Positions 11,539-59,276 of a stretch of DNA of 64,000 nucleotides are shown in pieces. Below the pieces are notes generated by a model. That model ran no database searches. It was not told where the DNA came from and saw only the letters and a list, made by a program, of their open reading frames with translations. The stretch comes from Chloroflexota bacterium. Its GTDB lineage: Bacteria; Chloroflexota; UBA11872; VXOZ01. The DNA lies in contig JAPOQA010000016.1 in assembly GCA_026710945.1 (NCBI GenBank), positions 1 through 64,000 on the forward strand. The letters run 5' to 3'. How positions within the stretch are numbered: position 1 is the stretch's first letter; the number at the start of each line of letters is the position of its first letter. The position numbers and the translations under genes are program-made.

Positions 11539-12372
11539 ATGGCATACGCATTGGAAGACGAGTTTGGTGACATCATCGGCAAGGCACGGCGAGGGTTGGG
11601 ATTGACCGTTGACGCAGTGGCGGAGCAAGTGGGTGTCAGCGCAGGCGATGTTGAGAAGATGGAGGCTTACACACTCACGCCCGATCAGGCCGTTGTGGGC
11701 CGACTTGCCGCCGCACTTGGGCTGCAAGAGGAGCGTCTTGGGGCAATTGCACGTGAAGAATGGGAACCCGCACCATGCGGCTTCACGGCCGGTGACAATA
11801 TAGATATCGAGCACTTTCTCGTCGCAGAGTACAACGCAAACGTCTACCTGCTGGTCAATAACAAGACAAAGACCGCCTTGCTCATCGATGCTGGTGGGCT
11901 GGCGAATGAGGTTGTGCAGCGCGTCAATCAGGCTGGACTCCGCTTGCTCGCAATTCTCTTCACGCACGGACACGGCGACCACACGGAATCGGCGGACACG
12001 ATTCAGCAGCAGACCGGCGCAGCCGTCCATGTCCACACTGCCGACGAAAATCTTGCAAGAGGAGCTTTTAGTGGAGGCATACGGATACTGAAAGACAACG
12101 AGACGGTGGAGTTTGATGGTTTTTCCGTCCTGGTCGTCCCTACTCCGGGCCATACCGCGGGGAGCGTCACCTACGTGGTCGAGGATGCCGCCTTCACCGG
12201 AGACACGTTGTTTGCCGGCTCGATGGGAAGATGCAGTCTAGCTTTCCCCAAGATGCTGCAGACTATTCGAGAGCACGTTCTCACGTTGCCGCCCGCGACA
12301 AGTCTTTTGCCAGGGCACGGTCCGGCCACGACCGTGCAGGAAGAGCGAGACCACAACCCGTTCTTCAGCTAG
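11539..12372 (+). CDS. Metallo-beta-lactamase fold hydrolase with N-terminal XRE-type HTH domain
   Basis: 277 residues; GGAG lies 8 nt before ATG 11539. Residues 8-70 read as an XRE/cro helix-turn-helix (LGLTVDAVAEQVGVSAGDVEKMEAY). The rest is a glyoxalase II-like MBL domain with all metal ligands: T-H143-G-H145-G-D147-H148, H205 in TPGHTAGS, D222 in FTGDTLFAG and H260 in LPGHGP. Glyoxalase II and persulfide dioxygenases share these ligands, so hydroxyacylglutathione-type hydrolysis or another thioester reaction is possible. A DNA-binding module fused to this enzyme is unusual; it may be an enzyme-regulator or the HTH may serve only for oligomerisation. Confidence 0.85.
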   Translation: MAYALEDEFGDIIGKARRGLGLTVDAVAEQVGVSAGDVEKMEAYTLTPDQAVVGRLAAALGLQEERLGAIAREEWEPAPCGFTAGDNIDIEHFLVAEYNANVYLLVNNKTKTALLIDAGGLANEVVQRVNQAGLRLLAILFTHGHGDHTESADTIQQQTGAAVHVHTADENLARGAFSGGIRILKDNETVEFDGFSVLVVPTPGHTAGSVTYVVEDAAFTGDTLFAGSMGRCSLAFPKMLQTIREHVLTLPPATSLLPGHGPATTVQEERDHNPFFS

Positions 12373-12734
12373 GCAACTGCGAGACTTTCAGGCGAGGCCA
12401 ATTCCCGCGTTGAAGGACCCCTCTTCGGTCCGTTAAGTTGGCGCCCGGGCTCCTGCATTGGACATCTTTTCTGTGGCGCAACGTGCCGGCAGACCGTCAA
12501 CTTTGGGATCTGAAGAATCACCTTTCGAGTCTTCCCCATTGCCCGGCTGACGCCGCTGACATCCGGAATCGGCAAGTCTGCGCACGAGGTGCGAGTGCGA
12601 AAACCCTCATCGCTGCCGTAATGTAGTCTCGCGTACAAAACGCTGCTCGTGAGCATGATATGCTCTCAATTAGGGACAGAGATCGGCTCCAGGTCAGTGC
12701 AATTCGCTGCCGCCCTGCAAATGGAATTAGCCGC
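12373..12734. other. Intergenic region before the Crp/Fnr gene
   Basis: 362 bp without a credible gene. It holds a small hairpin GGACC-7 nt-GGTCC (12415-12431), 42 bp after the MBL stop, which might end transcription, and a 15-bp palindrome GAGCAT-GAT-ATGCTC (12651-12665) about 70 bp before the preferred Crp start. The overlapping minus-strand open frame (12369-12656) has no recognisable product. Confidence 0.5.
12651..12665. promoter_or_regulatory. Palindrome upstream of the Crp/Fnr gene, possible operator
   Basis: Perfect inverted repeat GAGCAT-GAT-ATGCTC. It does not match the Crp (TGTGA-6-TCACA) or Fnr (TTGAT-4-ATCAA) consensus. Its place 69 bp before ATG 12735 would fit autoregulation by a divergent family member. 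The in-frame ATG 12660 falls inside the palindrome, one reason to prefer the later start. Confidence 0.3.
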
Positions 12735-13487
12735 ATGAGAAACTACCGAGTATCCTCTCGATCAAAGGAACTGCGGACAAGCCAACGGCAGAACGGTCGA
12801 TTGGGACTTTACAACCATACGCTTTCCTGTATTTCCAAGATTGAAATCTTCGCCGACCTTCTGCCGCATGAAATTAGTAAGATAGACCATTCCAGCGCGA
12901 CGGTGCACATAAACAAGGGAGGGGTAATTCACACGCCCGAAGATAACCGAGAGATGCTCTTTCTTATCAAAGAGGGCCGCGTTCAGCTCTACCGCATATC
13001 ATTTGAAGGCCGCAAGCTCGTGCTGGCAATGCTGGGGCCGGATACATTCTTCGGAGAAATGCCGCTCTTTGGGCAGGCGATGGGAGATTCGGTGGCCCAA
13101 GCAGTGGATGACGTAACATTGTGCACACTGGGCCGCACTGAGGTGGAACGCATCCTCGTCACCTATCCCAGGATCGGCTTACGCCTCATTCAAGTGCTCA
13201 ACGAGCGACTTCAGGAAGCCGAAGAGCGCCTACACGAGAGCGCATTCTTGACCATGCCGGCCCGCACAGCGGCTTTGCTTTTGCGGCTCGCAGAGGATTC
13301 CGATGAGATTCAGGGGCTTACGCATCAGGACTTGGCGGACATGCTCGGCGTCTATCGCGAGACCGTTACGGCGACGTTGGACAAGCTGAAGCATGAGAAT
13401 TATCTCGAAATCGGACGGAAACGGATTACTCTGACAGACCGTTCTGCGCTAGAGAATGTCGTCCATGGCGCGCAACAGGACACGTGA
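12735..13487 (+). CDS. Crp/Fnr family transcriptional regulator
   Basis: 250 residues from ATG 12735; ATG 12660 would give 275, longer than is usual. The cyclic-nucleotide-binding-like barrel spans about residues 30-140 (FLIKEGRVQLYRI, GPDTFFGEMPLFGQ), the dimerisation helix follows, and the C-terminal winged helix is LTHQDLADMLGVYRETVTATLDKL. No cysteine cluster for an Fe-S centre is present, so it is not an Fnr-type oxygen sensor; the effector is unknown. Its stop overlaps the frame of the DUF3179 lipoprotein gene, suggesting co-transcription and possibly local control. Confidence 0.88.
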   Translation: MRNYRVSSRSKELRTSQRQNGRLGLYNHTLSCISKIEIFADLLPHEISKIDHSSATVHINKGGVIHTPEDNREMLFLIKEGRVQLYRISFEGRKLVLAMLGPDTFFGEMPLFGQAMGDSVAQAVDDVTLCTLGRTEVERILVTYPRIGLRLIQVLNERLQEAEERLHESAFLTMPARTAALLLRLAEDSDEIQGLTHQDLADMLGVYRETVTATLDKLKHENYLEIGRKRITLTDRSALENVVHGAQQDT

Positions 13488-47771: not shown

Positions 47772-50333
47772 TCACCTCTGCCCCGGCATCGTCGATGCCG
47801 ACGACTCCGCTGTAGATGACGTAACTGCGGCTCGCACTGATACCGCCACCGCGGCTTCCGCTCCTAGCAAAGCGCCCACCGGCGCATCCGGGAAGCCAAC
47901 GGGAACATAGACAATGTCTTCCGCCAATCGGTCATTGGCTTTCGCAGTAACTACCAGATCGGCGCCGTTCGCCTGAATGTCTACCTTTTCGCCGTCTCGA
48001 ACGCCGATGCGGTCTAACTGTGCCGGATGCAATTCAGCTATCGGCTCTGCGACCATCCGGCGCAAGTTGCTACTGTAGCGTCCGGTAACTCCCGGCACGA
48101 AGAGGTGGTCTTGGGTTACCAAGAGCAGCTTGCCGTCTCCATTCACGCTGGGGAGCGTGGGGAGATCCTGCCAACCGAAGCCCTGCGTGCTGTGCGTAAT
48201 GGGGATGTCGGCCAACACTGCAGCAATTTCCTGCGCAACCGAGTCCGAATTCCGGTATGTCCACTGCGCGCCAAGCTGTAGCGCAAGTTCAGTCAAAATC
48301 TGCCAATCGGGTTTCGCTTCGCCTACGGGCGGGATTGCCGCTTGGGCTCGTTGAGACCGCCCCTCCAAATTGGTGTACGTCCCGGTCTTTTCCGCAAAGC
48401 TGACGGCAGGCAAAACGACGTCGGCGTGCTCCGCCGCCGTGCTACTTACGAAGATGTCTTGCACCACCACAAAGTCTGCTTGCTCAAGAGTTGCTTGCGC
48501 TTGGTTGCGGTTGCGGGCGCTCGCCGCTAAATCCTCTCCAATTACGAAGAGCACAGCAACATCGGCGCCGGCCAAGAGATCGTCAACTGTTAATCCCTGA
48601 GAATCTGGCAGCACCACGTCCCACAGCCTGCCCAACGCACTGCGAGCCTGGGCGTCGTCAACGCTGCGGAAATTCGGCAGTATGTCCGCTCCCGCGCCCA
48701 TTTGCACCAAACCTCTGGAGTTTGCCTTATTAGCCAAGGGGAAGAGATGCGCGCTTGGCAAGGCCAACTTGAGATTGGCCGCCGCTTGAGCAAAGCTCTC
48801 GGCGCTGCCAATTAGCCAATTGCCGAGGGCCCAGACTATGCCGACGTTGCCAGCCTGCGCGAGTAATTCTGCAACCTGGCCGATCTCCTCCGCAGCGATA
48901 CCGGTATCTGTGGCAGCGCTCTCCAGAGTATAGCCACGCAATTCCTCCGGCGCGTTATCGTTCTCTGATCGGCGCAAAATATCACTGGCTAGTCCTTGAA
49001 CCAGGTGCTCTTCCGATCCCGGGCGTACGCGCAGCACGTGGCTTGCGAAGCGACTGTCCTGTCTGCTCGGCAAACTACTGACTTGGATAAGCGATTTTCC
49101 TTGGTCACGTACCCACTGCCGCATGCGCATACCAAGCACATCATGGCTTTCCATAATGTCGCCACCGACGACCAAGAAAGCATCCATTTGCTGCATCTGA
49201 TCGATACTGAAGTTGAAGGCGGCAGGTCCTAAGGCGCTGAGGGTGGGTATGAACGTCCAGCGCTCAGTGCTGTCAACGTTGTTGGTACCGATGACGTCCC
49301 GCATGAGACGCGACACGAGATAGTTTTCTTCATCTGAGAGCCGCCCGGAGGTAATGGCCGCTACGGAATCGGGCCCACTCTGCGCTTTTGCTTCCGTGAC
49401 TTGCGCCGCGACCAAACTGAGCGCTTCGTCCCAGCTTGCGGCTTCAAGTTGACCGTCTCTGCGCACCAGCGGTTGAGTCACGCGCGCGTCATCATGAATG
49501 TAGTCGTAGCCAAAGCGTCCGCGCGTGCAGAGCATGCCGTCTCCAGGCCCCCTGTCTCGCGTGTTTACCGGAGTTTGGTCGCGGAGCGCCGGATTCGCTT
49601 TCGTGCGCAGCACCTCGCCCATGCGCGTTTCAACGTGCATCTGGCAGCCGACGCTGCAGTGGTTGCAGATAGACTCGCTCTGGTGCACCTGCCATGCGCG
49701 GCCGCTGTGCATGAAGGGCCGGCTCAGCAGAGCGCCTACCGGGCAAACTTCAATACACTCTCCGCACTCGACGCAGTCCAGCGGTTCATCGAACTGCGTG
49801 CCGATATAGCTGTGGAAGCCGCGCAGATTAAAGGTAAGGGCGCTATCTCCGACTCTTTCATCGCAGACTCGCACGCACTTGCCGCAATAGATGCAGCGGT
49901 TTGGGTCCCACTCGATTAGCGGGCTGAATTCGTGGTCCGGTTCGTTTGGATTGTCGCTGCCCAACTTGCTGCGGTATACGCCCACCTCATAAGCGGTGTG
50001 CTGCAAGTCGCAGACACCGGACTTGTCGCAGTACGGGCAGTCGAGCGGGTGGTGCTGTAGGGTCATCTCCATGATGCCCTGCTGCGCATGCACCACCGGG
50101 TCGGTCTTGGTGCTCACCACCATGCCGTCCATGGCCATGGTATTGCAGGAAGAGAGCGGCTTAGGGGCCCGTTCGACCTCAACCACGCACATGCGGCAGG
50201 CGCCGTACGGCTTGAGGAAGGTATCAAAACATAGAGTAGGAATGTAGATACCAGACTTGCGCGCGGCATCGAGGATCGTCGACCCGTCAGGTACCGTTAC
50301 CTCTTGACCGTCAACTGTCAGTGTTACCGGCAT
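47772..50333 (-). CDS. nuoG: NADH-quinone oxidoreductase subunit G
   Basis: 853 residues. The [2Fe-2S] site (N1b) is in CFDTFLKPYGACRMC plus the CNT cysteine; the His-Cys3 N5 site is HHPLDCPYCDKSGVC; N4 is formed by CIYCGKCVRVC and CVECGECIEVCPVG; an additional cluster of the N7 type is present (CNHCSVGC, then a cysteine in MLCTRGR). A long molybdopterin-oxidoreductase-like domain without obvious catalytic residues follows. The protein normally takes electrons from NuoF, but nuoE and nuoF are absent between nuoD and nuoG, where they would be expected. Confidence 0.93.
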   Translation of the reverse strand: MPVTLTVDGQEVTVPDGSTILDAARKSGIYIPTLCFDTFLKPYGACRMCVVEVERAPKPLSSCNTMAMDGMVVSTKTDPVVHAQQGIMEMTLQHHPLDCPYCDKSGVCDLQHTAYEVGVYRSKLGSDNPNEPDHEFSPLIEWDPNRCIYCGKCVRVCDERVGDSALTFNLRGFHSYIGTQFDEPLDCVECGECIEVCPVGALLSRPFMHSGRAWQVHQSESICNHCSVGCQMHVETRMGEVLRTKANPALRDQTPVNTRDRGPGDGMLCTRGRFGYDYIHDDARVTQPLVRRDGQLEAASWDEALSLVAAQVTEAKAQSGPDSVAAITSGRLSDEENYLVSRLMRDVIGTNNVDSTERWTFIPTLSALGPAAFNFSIDQMQQMDAFLVVGGDIMESHDVLGMRMRQWVRDQGKSLIQVSSLPSRQDSRFASHVLRVRPGSEEHLVQGLASDILRRSENDNAPEELRGYTLESAATDTGIAAEEIGQVAELLAQAGNVGIVWALGNWLIGSAESFAQAAANLKLALPSAHLFPLANKANSRGLVQMGAGADILPNFRSVDDAQARSALGRLWDVVLPDSQGLTVDDLLAGADVAVLFVIGEDLAASARNRNQAQATLEQADFVVVQDIFVSSTAAEHADVVLPAVSFAEKTGTYTNLEGRSQRAQAAIPPVGEAKPDWQILTELALQLGAQWTYRNSDSVAQEIAAVLADIPITHSTQGFGWQDLPTLPSVNGDGKLLLVTQDHLFVPGVTGRYSSNLRRMVAEPIAELHPAQLDRIGVRDGEKVDIQANGADLVVTAKANDRLAEDIVYVPVGFPDAPVGALLGAEAAVAVSVRAAVTSSTAESSASTMPGQR

Positions 50334-50394: not shown

Positions 50395-51600
50395 CTAACG
50401 ATCAATCTCTCCAAGCACAATGTCAATGCTTCCAATTACCGCAACCACGTCTGCCAGCAGCCGTCCCTTAACCAGATACGGCAGCGACTGCAGATTTGCA
50501 AAAGACGGCGAGCGCACGTGCATACGGTACGGTTTGCCGCTGCCGTCGCTGACAACATAGAAAGCCAGTTCCCCCTTTGGCGCCTCGATAGCTGCGTACG
50601 TTTCACCGCGTGGCACCGGGAAGCCGTGGATGTACATCCAGAAGTGATTGATCATTGCTTCCATATCGGTATAGAGGCGGGGCGTGTCGGGTCGGGCGAC
50701 GCGCGCGTCATCCGTCATGACCGGGCCTGGTGGCAAGTGATCGATTACTTGCCGCATGATGCGTACGCTCTGGCGCATCTCCTCAAGGCGCAGCAGATAG
50801 CGGCTATAGACATCGCCTTTGCCGGTTCCGATTGGGACGTCAAACTCCACCTTATCGTAGGCGGCATAGGGTTCCGCTTTGCGGATGTCCCACTCCACCC
50901 CCGAGCCGCGCAAGCAAGCGCCGGAAAGCCCCATCGCAATCGCGTCATCGGCGGAAATGACGCCCACGTCCACAGTACGTCCCAGCCAGAGCTCATTCTT
51001 GCTGAGCAGCGTGTCGAATTGATTGATTTCCTTGATGAAGTAGTCCAGAGAACTTTCAAGCTTTTCGTAGAAGGTCTCGCTCGGCTCTTCCAGGAAGCCG
51101 CCGGGCCGCATGACGCTGTGGGTCATCCGCGCGCCGCAAAGCTCTTCGAAGAGTTCGAGCACGCGTTCACGGGCACGGAAGGCATAGAGAAAGACCGACA
51201 TGGCGCCGATATCCAGCGCGTGGGTGCCGATCCAGACCAGATGTCCTGCCAGACGTCCCAACTCGCCAACAATGCAGCGCAGCCATTGCGCGCGTTCCGG
51301 CACTTCTATACCCGCAAGCGTTTCTACGGCCACCAACCAGCCAAGGTTACTGGACGCCGCTGCGGTGTAATCCATGCGGTCCGTGTAGCCGAGAATCTGC
51401 GTATACGTTTCACTCTCGGCAATCTTCTCAGTGCCGCGATGCAGGTAGCCGATGATGGGTACGGCTTCCTCGATGTACTCACCATCCATCTTCAAAATGA
51501 CCCGCAGCACACCATGCGTACTGGGATGCTGTGGCCCCATATTCAGGATCAGTCCTGAATCGCCTTCACCTGCGATGCGTTCAACTTCGACAGTCGCCAT
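50395..51600 (-). CDS. nuoD: NADH-quinone oxidoreductase subunit D
   Basis: 401 residues. Segments NMGPQHPSTHGVLRV, GYLHRGTEKIAE, GVISADDAIAMGLSGACLRGSG and the C-terminal GSIDIVLGEIDR are those of the 49-kDa subunit, which with NuoB forms the quinone-binding pocket and derives from hydrogenase large subunits. It is followed directly by nuoG (61 bp), with nuoE/F missing. Confidence 0.95.
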   Translation of the reverse strand: MATVEVERIAGEGDSGLILNMGPQHPSTHGVLRVILKMDGEYIEEAVPIIGYLHRGTEKIAESETYTQILGYTDRMDYTAAASSNLGWLVAVETLAGIEVPERAQWLRCIVGELGRLAGHLVWIGTHALDIGAMSVFLYAFRARERVLELFEELCGARMTHSVMRPGGFLEEPSETFYEKLESSLDYFIKEINQFDTLLSKNELWLGRTVDVGVISADDAIAMGLSGACLRGSGVEWDIRKAEPYAAYDKVEFDVPIGTGKGDVYSRYLLRLEEMRQSVRIMRQVIDHLPPGPVMTDDARVARPDTPRLYTDMEAMINHFWMYIHGFPVPRGETYAAIEAPKGELAFYVVSDGSGKPYRMHVRSPSFANLQSLPYLVKGRLLADVVAVIGSIDIVLGEIDR

Positions 51601-51639: not shown

Positions 51640-52125
51640 TCAGAGACCTTCCCGGGGGAAGTCTTTGCGCAGTGGGTGATACTCGTAGTCTTCATCCATT
51701 AGGATGCGCCGGAGATCCGGATGGTTTTCGAATTTTATGCCCATTAGATCGTAGACTTCACGCTCCGGCCAGTCGGCGCCGGGCCAGACCTGTGCCATAG
51801 ATTCTATCGACTCGCTCGCGGCAATGCGCGTCTTGACGCGAATGCTGCGATTGTCCGGAATCGAGCGCAGGTGGTAGACGACTTCATATTCCTGCGTCTC
51901 GCCCGGCCAGTGTACCGCCGTCACGTCACCAAAGTAATTGAAGCGAAGCTCCAAGTCATCCCGCAATACCGTTGCGACCGCCAGAAGGTCCGCCGCCGCA
52001 ATCTCTATCGTCAGAAAATTGCGTTGGGTATTTGCAGCAATGACCTTATCGTCCAGGACCGCTTGCACACGTTCCTGAATAGTTTCCGCGGCAACCGGCG
52101 GCGGAATGCTCACGACTCCACTCAC
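51640..52125 (-). CDS. nuoC: NADH-quinone oxidoreductase subunit C
   Basis: 161 residues from GTG 52125, overlapping the nuoB stop as GTGA. Signature [40 protein letters not shown] (30-kDa subunit, in several pieces here). Separate from nuoD, not fused as in E. coli. It contributes to the peripheral arm scaffold. Confidence 0.93.
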
Positions 52126-52703
52126 TCCTTGGCCGCCGCAGCGGCACGGGCGGTAAGCAGGGCTTCCTCAGAGCCTGCCCATTCGCCTTGCTTGATCTTT
52201 TGCTGCAATAACATTAGACCATCAAGCAGCGCCTCCGGCCGCGGCGGACAACCGGGCACGTAGATGTCAACAGGAACCGCAAGGTCTACGCCTTGGAGCA
52301 CACTATAGGAGCGGTACGGACCTCCACACGTCGCGCAATTGCCATGGGCAATCACCCAACACGGACGCGCCATTTGTTCCCAAAGGTTGCGAATGATGGG
52401 CGCCATCTTCTTGGTCACCGTGCCTGCCACAATCATCACATCGGACTGTCTCGGCGTTGCCCGCGGTGCCATGCCGAAGCGGTCCATATCATAGTGTGAG
52501 GCAAACAGCGCCATCATCTCAATTGCGCAGCACGCCAGGCCAAACGTCATAGGCCACAATGCATTTGCCCGTCCCCAGTTCAAGACTTGATCAGCGGAAG
52601 CGAGTACAAAGCCGGAAGCGCCGGTTTTCTGCCCAGCGGTCTGCGCAGTCGGCAGGGTAAGTGTATCTTCTACAACCCCCAATCGAACGCTCCTTTCTTC
52701 CAT
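52122..52703 (-). CDS. nuoB: NADH-quinone oxidoreductase subunit B
   Basis: 193 residues from ATG 52703; TTG 52682, 7 nt after GGAG, is a good alternative and would shorten the 34-bp overlap with nuoA. The N2 [4Fe-4S] ligands are in [11 protein letters not shown], then NCATCGG and [17 protein letters not shown]2 is the last cluster before quinone. The C-terminal 20 residues are a variable Ala-rich tail. Confidence 0.94.
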
Positions 52704-53047
52704 GCGTAAACGTATCCCACGAGCAAGATAGCAATAAATATCGCCATTTCAATCAGACCAAACAGGCCGAGCGACGCCAAGATGACGGCCCATGGGAAGA
52801 GAAACGCAAGCTCCAAGTCGAAGACAACGTACACAATTGCCACCAAGTAGAAGTGCACGCCGTGACGACCGCGCGTATCGCCCACCAAGCCACTGGGGCC
52901 AATCCCGGATTCGTAAGGGATTGTGCGCAGTGGTCCCGGTTTGAATTTCGGTCGTAGTACGGAAGCAAGAGCCAGCGCGATGATGCCGAATGCAGACGCA
53001 GCGACGAAGAGCACCAAGAACGGGATGTATCCAACGTAATACTCCAT
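52670..53047 (-). CDS. nuoA: NADH-quinone oxidoreductase subunit A
   Basis: 125 residues with three helices; YESGIGPSG and [22 protein letters not shown] are conserved NuoA segments, though the loop cysteine seen in many homologues is replaced (YESGIGP rather than YECG). First gene of the nuo operon, with a recognisable promoter 50 bp upstream. Confidence 0.93.
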
Positions 53048-53097: not shown

Positions 53098-53126
53098 ATA
53101 ATGGACGAATCGTTCACCATTTTCAA
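53098..53126 (-). promoter_or_regulatory. Putative nuo operon promoter
   Basis: On the minus strand, -35 TTGAAA (53121-53126) and -10 CATTAT (53098-53103) are 17 bp apart. The -10 lies 50 bp before ATG 53047. Between the two boxes is TGGTGAA, a 6/7 match to one Rex half-site. Confidence 0.5.
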
Positions 53127-53162: not shown

Positions 53163-53840
53163 CTAATCGTCTGAACATGTGCTGCCCGATGCTTGGTCTT
53201 CCGCCACACTTTCCCTCAGCAGGTACGAGAGATACTCTACTTCGATTGAAAGGTCCACACTGGCCAAGTAAACGTCGGAAGGCACCTTGAGCGAGATTGG
53301 GGCGAAATTGAGCACGCAGCGCACGCCGGCATCGACGAGCTGCTGGGTTACTGACTGTGCGGCTTTTGCCGGCACGGCTAAAAGCGCCATGACGATCTTG
53401 CGCGCCTGAATGGTCTCCCGGATCTCGTCCATCGGCTTTACGACTATGTCGCGGATCACAGTGCCGACCCGGCGGGGATCAGAGTCGAAGGCCTCTACAA
53501 TGCGGAAGCCCTGGCGTGGAAACCCATCATACGCCAGCAGGGCGGAGCCCAGATTGCCGACACCGACAAGCGCCATGGGCCATCCTTCGCCAATTCCCAA
53601 GATTTCCTGCATGTGCACGAGCAGCGATTGTACGTCGTACCCTACTCCGCGCCTCCCAAAGTTTCCAAAGTAGGCGAGATCGCGGCGGACCTGGGCGGCA
53701 GTGGAGCCAGTCAGATTGGAGAGGTGTTCAGAGGATATGCTCTCAACTTCCTGTTCCCGTAGCGCAGCCAATGTACGATAGTACATAGAGAGGCGTCTAA
53801 TCGCCATTTGCGGCGCTTTTCCCCTCGGCGACCCAGACAT
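53163..53840 (-). CDS. rex: Redox-sensing transcriptional repressor Rex
   Basis: 225 residues. The N-terminal winged helix (residues 15-70) reads RLSMYYRTLAAL, then SSEHLSNLTGSTAAQVRRDLAYFGNFGRRGVGY, typical of Rex (quoted in parts). The NAD(H)-binding Rossmann motif is LVGVGNLGSALLAY (Gly93, Gly95, Gly98). Rex binds DNA when NAD+ is high and leaves it when NADH rises. It lies 115 bp upstream of nuoA on the same strand, and an operator sits 30 bp before its own start, so it very probably controls itself and may control nuo. Confidence 0.93.
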   Translation of the reverse strand: MSGSPRGKAPQMAIRRLSMYYRTLAALREQEVESISSEHLSNLTGSTAAQVRRDLAYFGNFGRRGVGYDVQSLLVHMQEILGIGEGWPMALVGVGNLGSALLAYDGFPRQGFRIVEAFDSDPRRVGTVIRDIVVKPMDEIRETIQARKIVMALLAVPAKAAQSVTQQLVDAGVRCVLNFAPISLKVPSDVYLASVDLSIEVEYLSYLLRESVAEDQASGSTCSDD

Positions 53841-53869
53841 TGGCGCTCCTCATATCAGAAGCTTTTGCC

Positions 53870-53887
53870 ACGTGAAACATATCACAA
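53870..53887 (-). promoter_or_regulatory. Rex operator (ROP) upstream of rex
   Basis: On the minus strand TTGTGATATGTTTCACGT matches TTGTGAA-N4-TTCACAA at 11 of 14 fixed positions. It ends 30 bp before ATG 53840 and covers TATGTT, a possible -10 that has TTGCGT 17 bp upstream. A second TATCA-GAAGCTT copy lies at 53851-53864 as a direct repeat of 53878-53891 (13/14). Confidence 0.75.
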
Positions 53888-54422
53888 GCTTCTGGCACAC
53901 GCAACCAAATTACGCCGCGCCTGGGCGAATGTTCTCCCGACTAATCCGTCAACTGATTGAATGAGGCGTGCTGCCAATTCGGTCAGAATCAAATGACGAC
54001 CACTTTCACTCTTGCTGCGACGAGATAGTACATGAATGAGGGACCTTGGCGCCCAAGACTTTGCCCATACAAGGCCCCCTTTGTAAGCTCGTACACACGG
54101 GCAATGCGGCAGCTGTTACTACAAGTCCAGTCGTGGAGAGTCGTCAAACTCCCCACGTCAACGACTTGGCGGGGGAAGAGCCGTGAAGGTCAAAGTAGAT
54201 TTCATACTGGCCGTCTACGCCTAGAAGAGTCGTAATGCAACTGAGAGTCGCACTTTGCAAGGAAGAGTTGGCTGAGCCCAGTGTGGATGAAAAGGGCTGA
54301 CCTCGTAGATAGCCGTTGTGGTGCGGTGAAAGGAAAACCCCGCACCTACTCACCATTGGTTTAGTGAATGGCTGCGGGGATCGAGTGGCGCATCCAGGCG
54401 CAGGTGAGGTGAGGCTGCTTGC
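53888..54422. other. Long noncoding stretch between vanW and rex with inverted repeats
   Basis: 535 bp beyond the Rex site, without a credible gene. Two clear hairpins are present: CGTGG-A-GAGT-CGTCAA-ACTC-C-CCACG (54132-54157) and GGTGCGG-13 nt-CCGCACC (54320-54346). I checked by eye for RNase P, tmRNA, SRP and 6S hallmarks and saw none. A structured small RNA or long leader is possible. Confidence 0.4.
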
Positions 54423-56246
54423 TTATCCCGGCAGTTGTGGAGCAGAATCCGGTTGTTCCCCTGGCGGCACAGTCTTCGTGCCGACGAGCCAGCGCTCCCG
54501 CCATGGCCGGTAGCGGCTGCGAAATTGATCGTACTGGGAATCTCCGGCTACCACAATTTCTCGATGTATCTCGGCATCTACGCCGTCCACCGCCCATTCC
54601 ACCTGCAAGCGTTCGCCCAGCGGGAGATCAGGGTCTACTTTGTCCGGCAGGGGTGGACCGTGTTTTACCCAGTTCTTGGCGACAGCGGGAAGCATGCGCA
54701 CCCACCGATCCGGACTGCGACCGTGGAAAACAAACTTGAGCTCCATGGCTTCTTTGTCAACATGCGTTTGGATGAGGATGGGGTGTTCCGAATCGTTGAC
54801 AAACTTGAGATCGACACCCGGGTCATAGACTGCGGCATCGAAGCCCGGCGGGCTCCCGTCTCGCTCGTAGTATCCAACTCTGTAAGAGTGTTGATTGCGT
54901 TCCGTGATTGGCAGTCCGGCCCAGAATGCCGCCCGGAACATGGTGGTGGATACCTGACACACCCCTCCGCCGACACCCGGAACTGTCTGATCGCCAAAAA
55001 TTATCAGGCTGGACTGGTAGCCGTCCCCACGCGTGATCGGCCCGAGTACGCTCAGGAACGAGAACGTTTCTCCAGGCGGGATAACATAGCCATGAAGCTT
55101 CGACGCTGCCAAGGCAATGTTGTGGGCGCGCTCAGGCGGCGAACCGGCGAACAATGAGGTGCCCTCAGCAATGACTTCCTCGAAGCCCCAATTGTGCATG
55201 TTGTCCGCGGTATAGGCCGGTTCCCGTACCTCAGCGGGGAGGTAGAGGGCCGTTACGCCTTGCTCGATGGCGGCCTGTGCTGTGGCAATGAGGACATCTG
55301 AGTCGGTCTGATAGCCTTGCTTGGCAGGCACATCCAGGTGCACACTCTTCTCCCGGACGGTAAATCGGGCGTTCAAGGGAGGCCGAGATGCCTCGACGGC
55401 AACTCGGGCTAACCAATTCTGAAGCATCTCCTGCTCACCCATGATCGCCAAACGGCCCTGCTCCGGGTCTTGATAGATTTGTATCCAGGACTTTAGCATG
55501 CTCCCCGGCACTTCCCAACCATCTCCGTCAAGCTCAAATCGCAAACCTTGGGTAACGAGCTTTTCAAAGACTGACTTTGTTCTTTCTGCCATTTGTAAGG
55601 TGATCGGTGGTGTTAGTGATACGACAGGCAATTCTATTACCTGGAGCTGCGGCGGGTCTGTGGGCAGCTTCATCAAGCCAAGCGTAGCTTCACGGTCTAG
55701 CCGCTTGCCTTCGGCGCCGGGGACAACACGGACACGATCGGCCTGGCGTTCTAGCAGAGAATTGATGGGCGGTCGGTCGATATGACTTGCAACCGCACCC
55801 AGGAATCCTAAGGCTACCGTAGAATCCAAGAAGATTGGCAGATCTACCTGGTTGCGTGAGCTCAATCCCAAGAACCACAGCCACATGCGCCGCCGTTCTA
55901 ATGCGAATGCGGTGCGAATTGCCTTCTTGATCTGCACGATGAGTCCAATTTCCGTTGCTGAGGGCGCCCAAGTGGCTTCTTCATGGCCGAAAACCACTGG
56001 GTTGCGCAGATAGTCTTGCCACTGAGCCTCGACCTGCGCGCTTGCCTCATCAACCGACATTCCGGAAATGTCCACAGAACCGATGAATGTCCCCGGCAAC
56101 GCGTATCTGCCTAATTGAGAGCGAATCACGCCATAGGCCGACCCGGTTGCCATGCCCACAACGGGTACAGCAGCGACTTTCAGGACCAGCCGCCGGGAAA
56201 TACTGCGAGAACTAGCTTTCCATGCGTAACGCGATTGCATCGGCAT
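54423..56246 (-). CDS. VanW family protein with peptidoglycan-binding-like N-terminal domains
   Basis: 607 residues; GGAG lies 7 nt before ATG 56246. The N-terminus has a twin-arginine-like leader (SISRRLVLKVAAVPVVGMATG), then two repeats of the domain that begins GTFIGSVDISGMSVDEASAQV, as in YoaR-type proteins. The VanW domain near residues 385-520 carries SKLHGYVIPPGETFSFL and VPGVGGGVCQVSTTMFRAAF with the conserved cysteine. VanW accompanies some vancomycin-resistance clusters, but these large versions are common exported wall proteins of unknown role in Gram-positive and Chloroflexota lineages. No van genes are nearby. Confidence 0.87.
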   Translation of the reverse strand: MPMQSRYAWKASSRSISRRLVLKVAAVPVVGMATGSAYGVIRSQLGRYALPGTFIGSVDISGMSVDEASAQVEAQWQDYLRNPVVFGHEEATWAPSATEIGLIVQIKKAIRTAFALERRRMWLWFLGLSSRNQVDLPIFLDSTVALGFLGAVASHIDRPPINSLLERQADRVRVVPGAEGKRLDREATLGLMKLPTDPPQLQVIELPVVSLTPPITLQMAERTKSVFEKLVTQGLRFELDGDGWEVPGSMLKSWIQIYQDPEQGRLAIMGEQEMLQNWLARVAVEASRPPLNARFTVREKSVHLDVPAKQGYQTDSDVLIATAQAAIEQGVTALYLPAEVREPAYTADNMHNWGFEEVIAEGTSLFAGSPPERAHNIALAASKLHGYVIPPGETFSFLSVLGPITRGDGYQSSLIIFGDQTVPGVGGGVCQVSTTMFRAAFWAGLPITERNQHSYRVGYYERDGSPPGFDAAVYDPGVDLKFVNDSEHPILIQTHVDKEAMELKFVFHGRSPDRWVRMLPAVAKNWVKHGPPLPDKVDPDLPLGERLQVEWAVDGVDAEIHREIVVAGDSQYDQFRSRYRPWRERWLVGTKTVPPGEQPDSAPQLPG

Positions 56247-59110: not shown

Positions 59111-59140
59111 CTCTAGATTTCTCGCTACGCTCGAAATGAC
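59111..59140. repeat. Interspersed repeat end (TTTCTCGCTACGCTCGAAATGAC type)
   Basis: The motif CTCGCTACGCTCGAAATGAC, read on the other strand as GTCATTTCGAGCGTAGCGAG, is one of the dispersed short repeats frequent in environmental genomes. It runs directly into the 24-bp tandem array. Confidence 0.5.
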
Positions 59141-59230
59141 ATTAAGTGAGGAAGCGCGAATGACATCAAGTGAGGAAGCGCAAATTACATTAGGTGAGAA
59201 AGCGCAAGTGACATAAGGTGAGGAAGCCCA
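59135..59230. repeat. 24-bp tandem repeat, four copies
   Basis: Four consecutive 24-bp units start at 59135, 59159, 59183 and 59207, each of the form AATGACATNAAGTGAGGAAG-CGCN with few changes. No spacer lies between units, so this is not CRISPR. It begins within the end of the preceding interspersed repeat, as if that end had been duplicated. Confidence 0.75.
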
Positions 59231-59276
59231 ATTGAATTGGGGATAACTGCAAGTGCGCGTTTGTCGCTGCAATGAG

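Follow-up and report, generated by a model that had tools for sequence, protein, structure and literature searches.

The DNA analysed here (the window) is a 64-kb stretch of a 3.5-Mb genome in 70 contigs. The window genome (G000) was compared with five congeners (G001 to G005), all of which are Chloroflexi/Chloroflexota MAGs; the six genomes were 77%–95% identical in their rex–nuoA–nuoB DNA. On the minus strand of the window, rex is followed by genes for subunits of complex I in the order nuoA, nuoB, nuoC, nuoD and a nuoG-like gene. Upstream of rex lies a gene for a VanW-domain protein with a peptidoglycan-binding domain (54423–56246, minus strand), which occupies this position in each of the six genomes. 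The genes of the locus are as follows.

53163–53840, minus strand: rex, redox-sensing transcriptional repressor, 225 aa (NCBIfam, Pfam and PDB matches)
52670–53047, minus strand: nuoA, complex I subunit A (PF00507 over cut-off)
52122–52703, minus strand: nuoB (NCBIfam scan)
51640–52125, minus strand: nuoC, an open reading frame named from its position, without a family scan
50395–51600, minus strand: nuoD (NCBIfam scan)
47772–50333, minus strand: nuoG-like subunit (TIGR01973, 445.7 bits, just below the cut-off of 470.05)

The rex product exceeded the cut-off in six of nine NCBIfam Rex models and contained both PF06971 (N-terminal Rex DNA-binding domain) and PF02629 (C-terminal Rossmann domain) above their cut-offs. 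Its top match in the PDB was 3wg9 (E = 1.3e-44), and the Rex chains 3ikt and 3ikv matched with E values of 5.5e-44 and 7.7e-44. These two chains are Thermus aquaticus Rex, 3ikt with DNA. GxGxxG is the NAD(H) glycine motif of Rex, and it was present in the rex product, where GVGNLG aligned with GMGDLG of 3ikv. The family, domain and structure-chain matches identify the predicted product as a Rex repressor; the likeness to 3ikt and 3ikv is one of sequence, and DNA binding is predicted.

Between the VanW-domain gene and rex, the following elements were located.

53899–53904, minus strand: putative −35 of rex, TTGCGT (from sequence; TTGCG in all six genomes)
53878–53891, minus strand: direct-repeat copy 1, CATATCACAAGCTT, which contains one operator half (exact sequence check)
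53876–53881, minus strand: putative −10 of rex, TATGTT, within the operator and 17 bp from the −35 (TATCTT in G001)
53870–53887, minus strand: predicted Rex operator, TTGTGATATGTTTCACGT (11/14 match, conservation and matrix)
53851–53864, minus strand: direct-repeat copy 2, CATATCAGAAGCTT, the proposed extra half-site (13/14 in the window; not conserved)
53846–53851, minus strand: Shine-Dalgarno sequence of rex, GAGGAG (read from sequence; all six genomes)

The initial annotation had described an 11/14 match to the Rex consensus covering a possible −10 of rex, and both points were borne out by the exact sequence. Read on the rex strand from 53887 to 53870, TTGTGATATGTTTCACGT agreed with the consensus TTGTGAANNNNTTCACAA at 11 of 14 positions, and TATGTT lay inside it at the expected distance from TTGCGT. 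The TTGCGT-17-TATGTT pair was too weak to be listed by an automated promoter scan of the window; from its sequence and conservation it is likely to be the rex promoter.

The strength of the match was less informative. Two sites with at least 11/14 matches were observed in the window, against 2.0 expected in order-1 Markov sequence; therefore, the match alone provided no evidence for an operator, and motif strength was dropped as sole evidence. Genome-wide, TTGTGAN6TCACAA with up to two mismatches occurred at 81 sites, compared with 60 for the reversed control, and in the five congeners the pattern with up to one mismatch occurred at 35 sites, compared with seven for a control pattern. When a matrix was trained on 16 different sites from other promoters, 12 of them in the genus and four in the rex–nuoA gap of family f3, the operator came first among the 63,983 positions of the window; a score this high is expected 0.3 times per 64 kb. 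This rank is partly non-independent, because the training sites came from a related pattern.

Conservation was much clearer. The operator started 47 bp ahead of rex in all six genomes, and 17 of its 18 columns were invariant, compared with only 8 of the 95 columns ahead of the −35. In the stretch between these two regions, 8 of 18 columns were invariant; repeat copy 2 had 6 of 14, and the Shine-Dalgarno sequence with the start codon (53850–53838) had all 13. Position and conservation, rather than match score, convincingly raise the predicted operator above chance.

The initial annotation had also noted that CATATCA-S-AAGCTT occurs twice, 27 bp apart, with one copy holding an operator half. An exact check agreed, and the two copies were identical at 13 of 14 positions. 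The window contained four such repeat pairs (at least 13/14, spacing of 14–40 bp), two of them in one tandem array, and the same count in ten shuffles was 0, 0, 0, 0, 0, 4, 0, 1, 0 and 1. A tandem array of 4.2 copies of the 24-bp unit AAATGACATTAAGTGAGGAAGCGC was observed at 59134–59235. An extra half-site and possibly cooperative binding had been proposed from the CATATCA-S-AAGCTT repeat, and neither was supported. In the five congeners, only 9, 8, 9, 6 and 8 of the 14 repeat positions were identical, and none of them carried a conserved half-site beside the operator. Copy 2 reads TTCTGAT, which agrees with the half-site TTGTGAA at five of seven positions and lacks the G of TTGTGA. It lies in the putative leader of the rex transcript, abuts the Shine-Dalgarno sequence, and is 27 bp from copy 1, a half-integral number of helical turns (2.57).

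Copy 2 might nevertheless be a functional extra Rex half-site aiding rex repression, as proposed in Streptomyces avermitilis, and several observations are in favour of this. Besides its identity with copy 1, its 9-bp half scored 3.63 bits, close to the 3.94 bits of the weaker half of the operator. In the rex–nuoA–nuoB DNA tree, which is unrooted, G000 grouped with G002 (support of 0.956), so the change in copy 2 is most simply placed on the G000 branch. With the state in G001 as reference, copy 2 arose through three substitutions, all toward copy 1, an outcome that random placement reproduced in 0.0004–0.0014 of simulations in a post hoc test. These substitutions may reflect template switching or selection. 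Precedents are found in the accessible text of the S. avermitilis study, where half-sites accompany the full operators of cydA1 and wblE, and where two adjacent half-sites alone are protected at aveR (PMC5355995). The copy here likewise resembles a half-site beside a full operator. As far as that text goes, however, the half-sites at cydA1 and wblE read TTGTGAA/TTCACAA and share one 28-nt protected region with the full site (PMC5355995), whereas copy 2 reads TTCTGAT, is 27 bp away and is not conserved. Furthermore, 450 of the 127,984 half-site positions in the window scored at least as well as copy 2. A functional half-site is therefore improbable, and a more elaborate version is at least as doubtful: that the rex leader was rewritten in one species, through template-switch homogenisation or selection, into a Rex half-site abutting the Shine-Dalgarno sequence, through which Rex, or a DNA loop bound by Rex, would brake rex but not nuo, which has its own promoter. 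The extra half-site is probably not functional, and copy 2 is best regarded as a lineage-specific 5′ leader sequence without a demonstrated role.

Sites resembling the rex operator were found ahead of a coherent set of respiratory genes in the genus, named from NCBIfam scans of the G000 copies. An upstream site was present at coxA in all six genomes (five perfect, one 11/12; the site in G002 is 193 bp ahead of the gene) and at coxB in all six (10/12 in every case), the G002 coxB frame, which was masked in the open reading frame list, having been placed by alignment. At ctaB (heme O synthase), a site of 10–11 of 12 was found in all four genomes with a close homologue; such a homologue was not found in G001 and G003 (95% and 97% complete), though both carry coxA. 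The atp genes were preceded by an identical 10/12 sequence in the five genomes where atpB was found, about 320–345 bp before atpB and ahead of a small reading frame. A conserved 11/12 site, TTGTGAANNGCNGCACAA, also lies upstream of cimA (citramalate synthase) in all six genomes. The product of cimA is an isoleucine-pathway enzyme, which has no obvious tie to Rex.

Apart from those at coxA, the conserved sites were mostly imperfect (10–11 of 12). Conversely, the window genome contained eight sites with at most one mismatch, of which only those at coxA and cimA belonged to the conserved set; among the others, for which sequence was taken outside contigs C31 and C45, one ahead of an RND efflux gene recurred in two of six genomes and five had no demonstrated conservation. 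The RND efflux gene was excluded as a core regulon member on this distribution. The site ahead of a DAK2/YloV-type gene (L003) was not counted in the regulon, nor were those inside coding frames (L055, L056, L058, L060, L078 and L082, frames without a family scan).

Beyond the genus, the picture varied among lineages. In family f3 (19 genomes), a site lay between rex and nuoA in all 14 loci examined, 12 of them perfect and two at 11/12 (L011, L015, L016, L020, L023–L030, L033 and L034). The target promoter thus seems to have moved between lineages, since the predicted operator of this family is directly before nuoA and not before rex. One of two loci in family f4 carried a site at 10/12, located 123 bp upstream of the rex start as matched, and no site of at least 10/12 was found near rex in the eight loci examined in families f2 and f5. 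Of 13 class regions taken, three had a clear respiratory or NAD target, all in G016, where sites precede coxB, atpB (98.0 bits against the TIGR01131 cut-off of 102.6) and nadA.

Among 121 relatives, 43 of 61 Rex-positive genomes contained a perfect site, but only 4 of 60 Rex-negative genomes did (Fisher's exact test, 9e-14, without correction for phylogeny); Rex-positive was defined as having the Rex DNA-binding domain over cut-off, and three of the 60 negatives had a sub-threshold match. In total, 103 perfect sites were found in these relatives, compared with four for the control pattern. Outside the class, perfect sites were present in 11 of 23 Rex-positive genomes, leaving 12 without one, and in 2 of 57 Rex-negative genomes. 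Within the class alone, co-occurrence was not significant (32 of 38 Rex-positive vs. two of three Rex-negative; p = 0.44). The three class members lacking Rex were G024 and G026, which had sites and are 81% and 77% complete, and G011, which is 96% complete and had none. The rex genes of G024 and G026 may lie in a missing piece of the genome.

Two other readings of the palindrome were considered. Crp-type sites follow the consensus TGTGA-N6-TCACA, with arms and spacing as in Rex operators, and the site of a Crp/Fnr activator is located upstream of or overlapping the −35. The palindrome could accordingly belong to a Crp/Fnr-family regulator instead of Rex: the arms of the two are indistinguishable, the rex site (TGTGA-N6-TCACG) agrees with the Crp arms at nine of ten positions, and the window genome encodes two Crp-type proteins, one of them within the window.

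12660–13487, plus strand: Crp/Fnr-family regulator with an RETV recognition helix, by eye (below the CRP and NtcA model cut-offs)

In the other paralogue the helix differs, also by eye, and no site of at least 8/12 was found at 12301–12700, around the start of the gene in the window. The position of the sites is also unfavourable. Judged by eye, each operator at rex, coxB, ctaB and cimA sits on a −10-like sequence or shortly after one, which is the geometry expected of a repressor; at rex the site spans the likely −10, and at the other three genes it comes after it, positions unsuited to a Crp-type activator. Moreover, Crp-type helix-turn-helix domains were present in nearly all of the relatives (117 of 121, with 107 over cut-off), so they cannot account for sites whose distribution follows that of rex. 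Given this near-universal distribution and the repressor geometry, Rex is favoured over Crp, and a Crp/Fnr-type site is unlikely. It is far less credible still that the promoter is constitutive and the match in it accidental. The count of sites in the window would suit such a reading (two at 11/14 or better, 2.0 expected), but the invariance of the operator in six genomes and the wider set of conserved sites argue strongly against it.

A second promoter-like element was detected downstream of rex, before nuoA.

53098–53126, minus strand: TTGAAA-17-CATTAT, a promoter-like element that lacks a Rex operator (promoter scan; CATTAT in all six genomes)

The scan of the rex–nuoA gap found one element, against 0.6 expected in shuffles. 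Because a conserved promoter-like element without an operator precedes nuoA itself, Rex control of nuo in this genus may be partial, with nuo possibly served by a Rex-independent promoter. A purely single-promoter rex–nuo operon was doubted on the same grounds.

Taken together, TTGTGATATGTTTCACGT is very probably an autoregulatory Rex operator over the −10 of rex, released by NADH, and the same Rex probably acts on the cox, ctaB, atp and cimA sites. At a low NADH/NAD+ ratio, an NADH-free Rex dimer would bind TTGTGATATGTTTCACGT across the −10 and block RNA polymerase at the rex promoter. High NADH would release Rex, and rex would then be expressed, with nuo by read-through. Action of the same Rex at the coxB, coxA, ctaB, atp and cimA sites would make this a respiratory regulon. 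Binding, the NADH response, the promoters and the read-through from rex into nuo are predictions in this scheme. The autoregulation of rex predicted in the initial annotation is supported by conservation in all six genomes, by the coherent set of respiratory sites and by the co-occurrence of perfect sites with rex in the 121 relatives, each of which was observed directly.

This arrangement resembles the Rex operator (ROP) systems of Streptomyces. In the accessible text of the S. avermitilis study, the Rex regulon includes atp, nuo, cyd and rex–hem, and DNA binding by Rex is reduced by NADH (PMC5355995). The same text describes, for S. avermitilis and S. coelicolor ROP, the consensus TTGTGAANNNNTTCACAA and Rex on its own promoter, as predicted here, and the footprinted atpI site TTGTGATACGGTTCACGA of S. 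avermitilis is identical to the rex operator in the window at 15 of 18 positions (PMC5355995). Nuo, atp and oxidase genes, with operators over or just after the promoter, are likewise common to both, here as predicted from sequence and there as far as that text extends (PMC5355995). According to the same portions of the source, rex precedes hem genes in Streptomyces, unlike here, where it precedes nuo; and the oxidase genes of S. avermitilis are cyd, whereas here they are coxBA with heme O synthase, and citramalate synthase is included.

A search for literature on Rex together with Chloroflexus, Chloroflexota or Chloroflexi gave almost no matches, although the regulon is not claimed to be absent from print. 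Rex regulons were reportedly covered by Ravcheev et al. in 2012, who may already have included other Chloroflexi. The finding is an ordinary further example of the well-known Rex switch, and the apparent extra half-site fell away once relatives were aligned. These results suggest, by comparative genomics, a Rex regulon for an uncultured Chloroflexota genus that would comprise complex I, cytochrome c oxidase, heme O synthase, ATP synthase and citramalate synthase, a simple redox-control hypothesis that could be tested using a single purified protein and some six DNA fragments.
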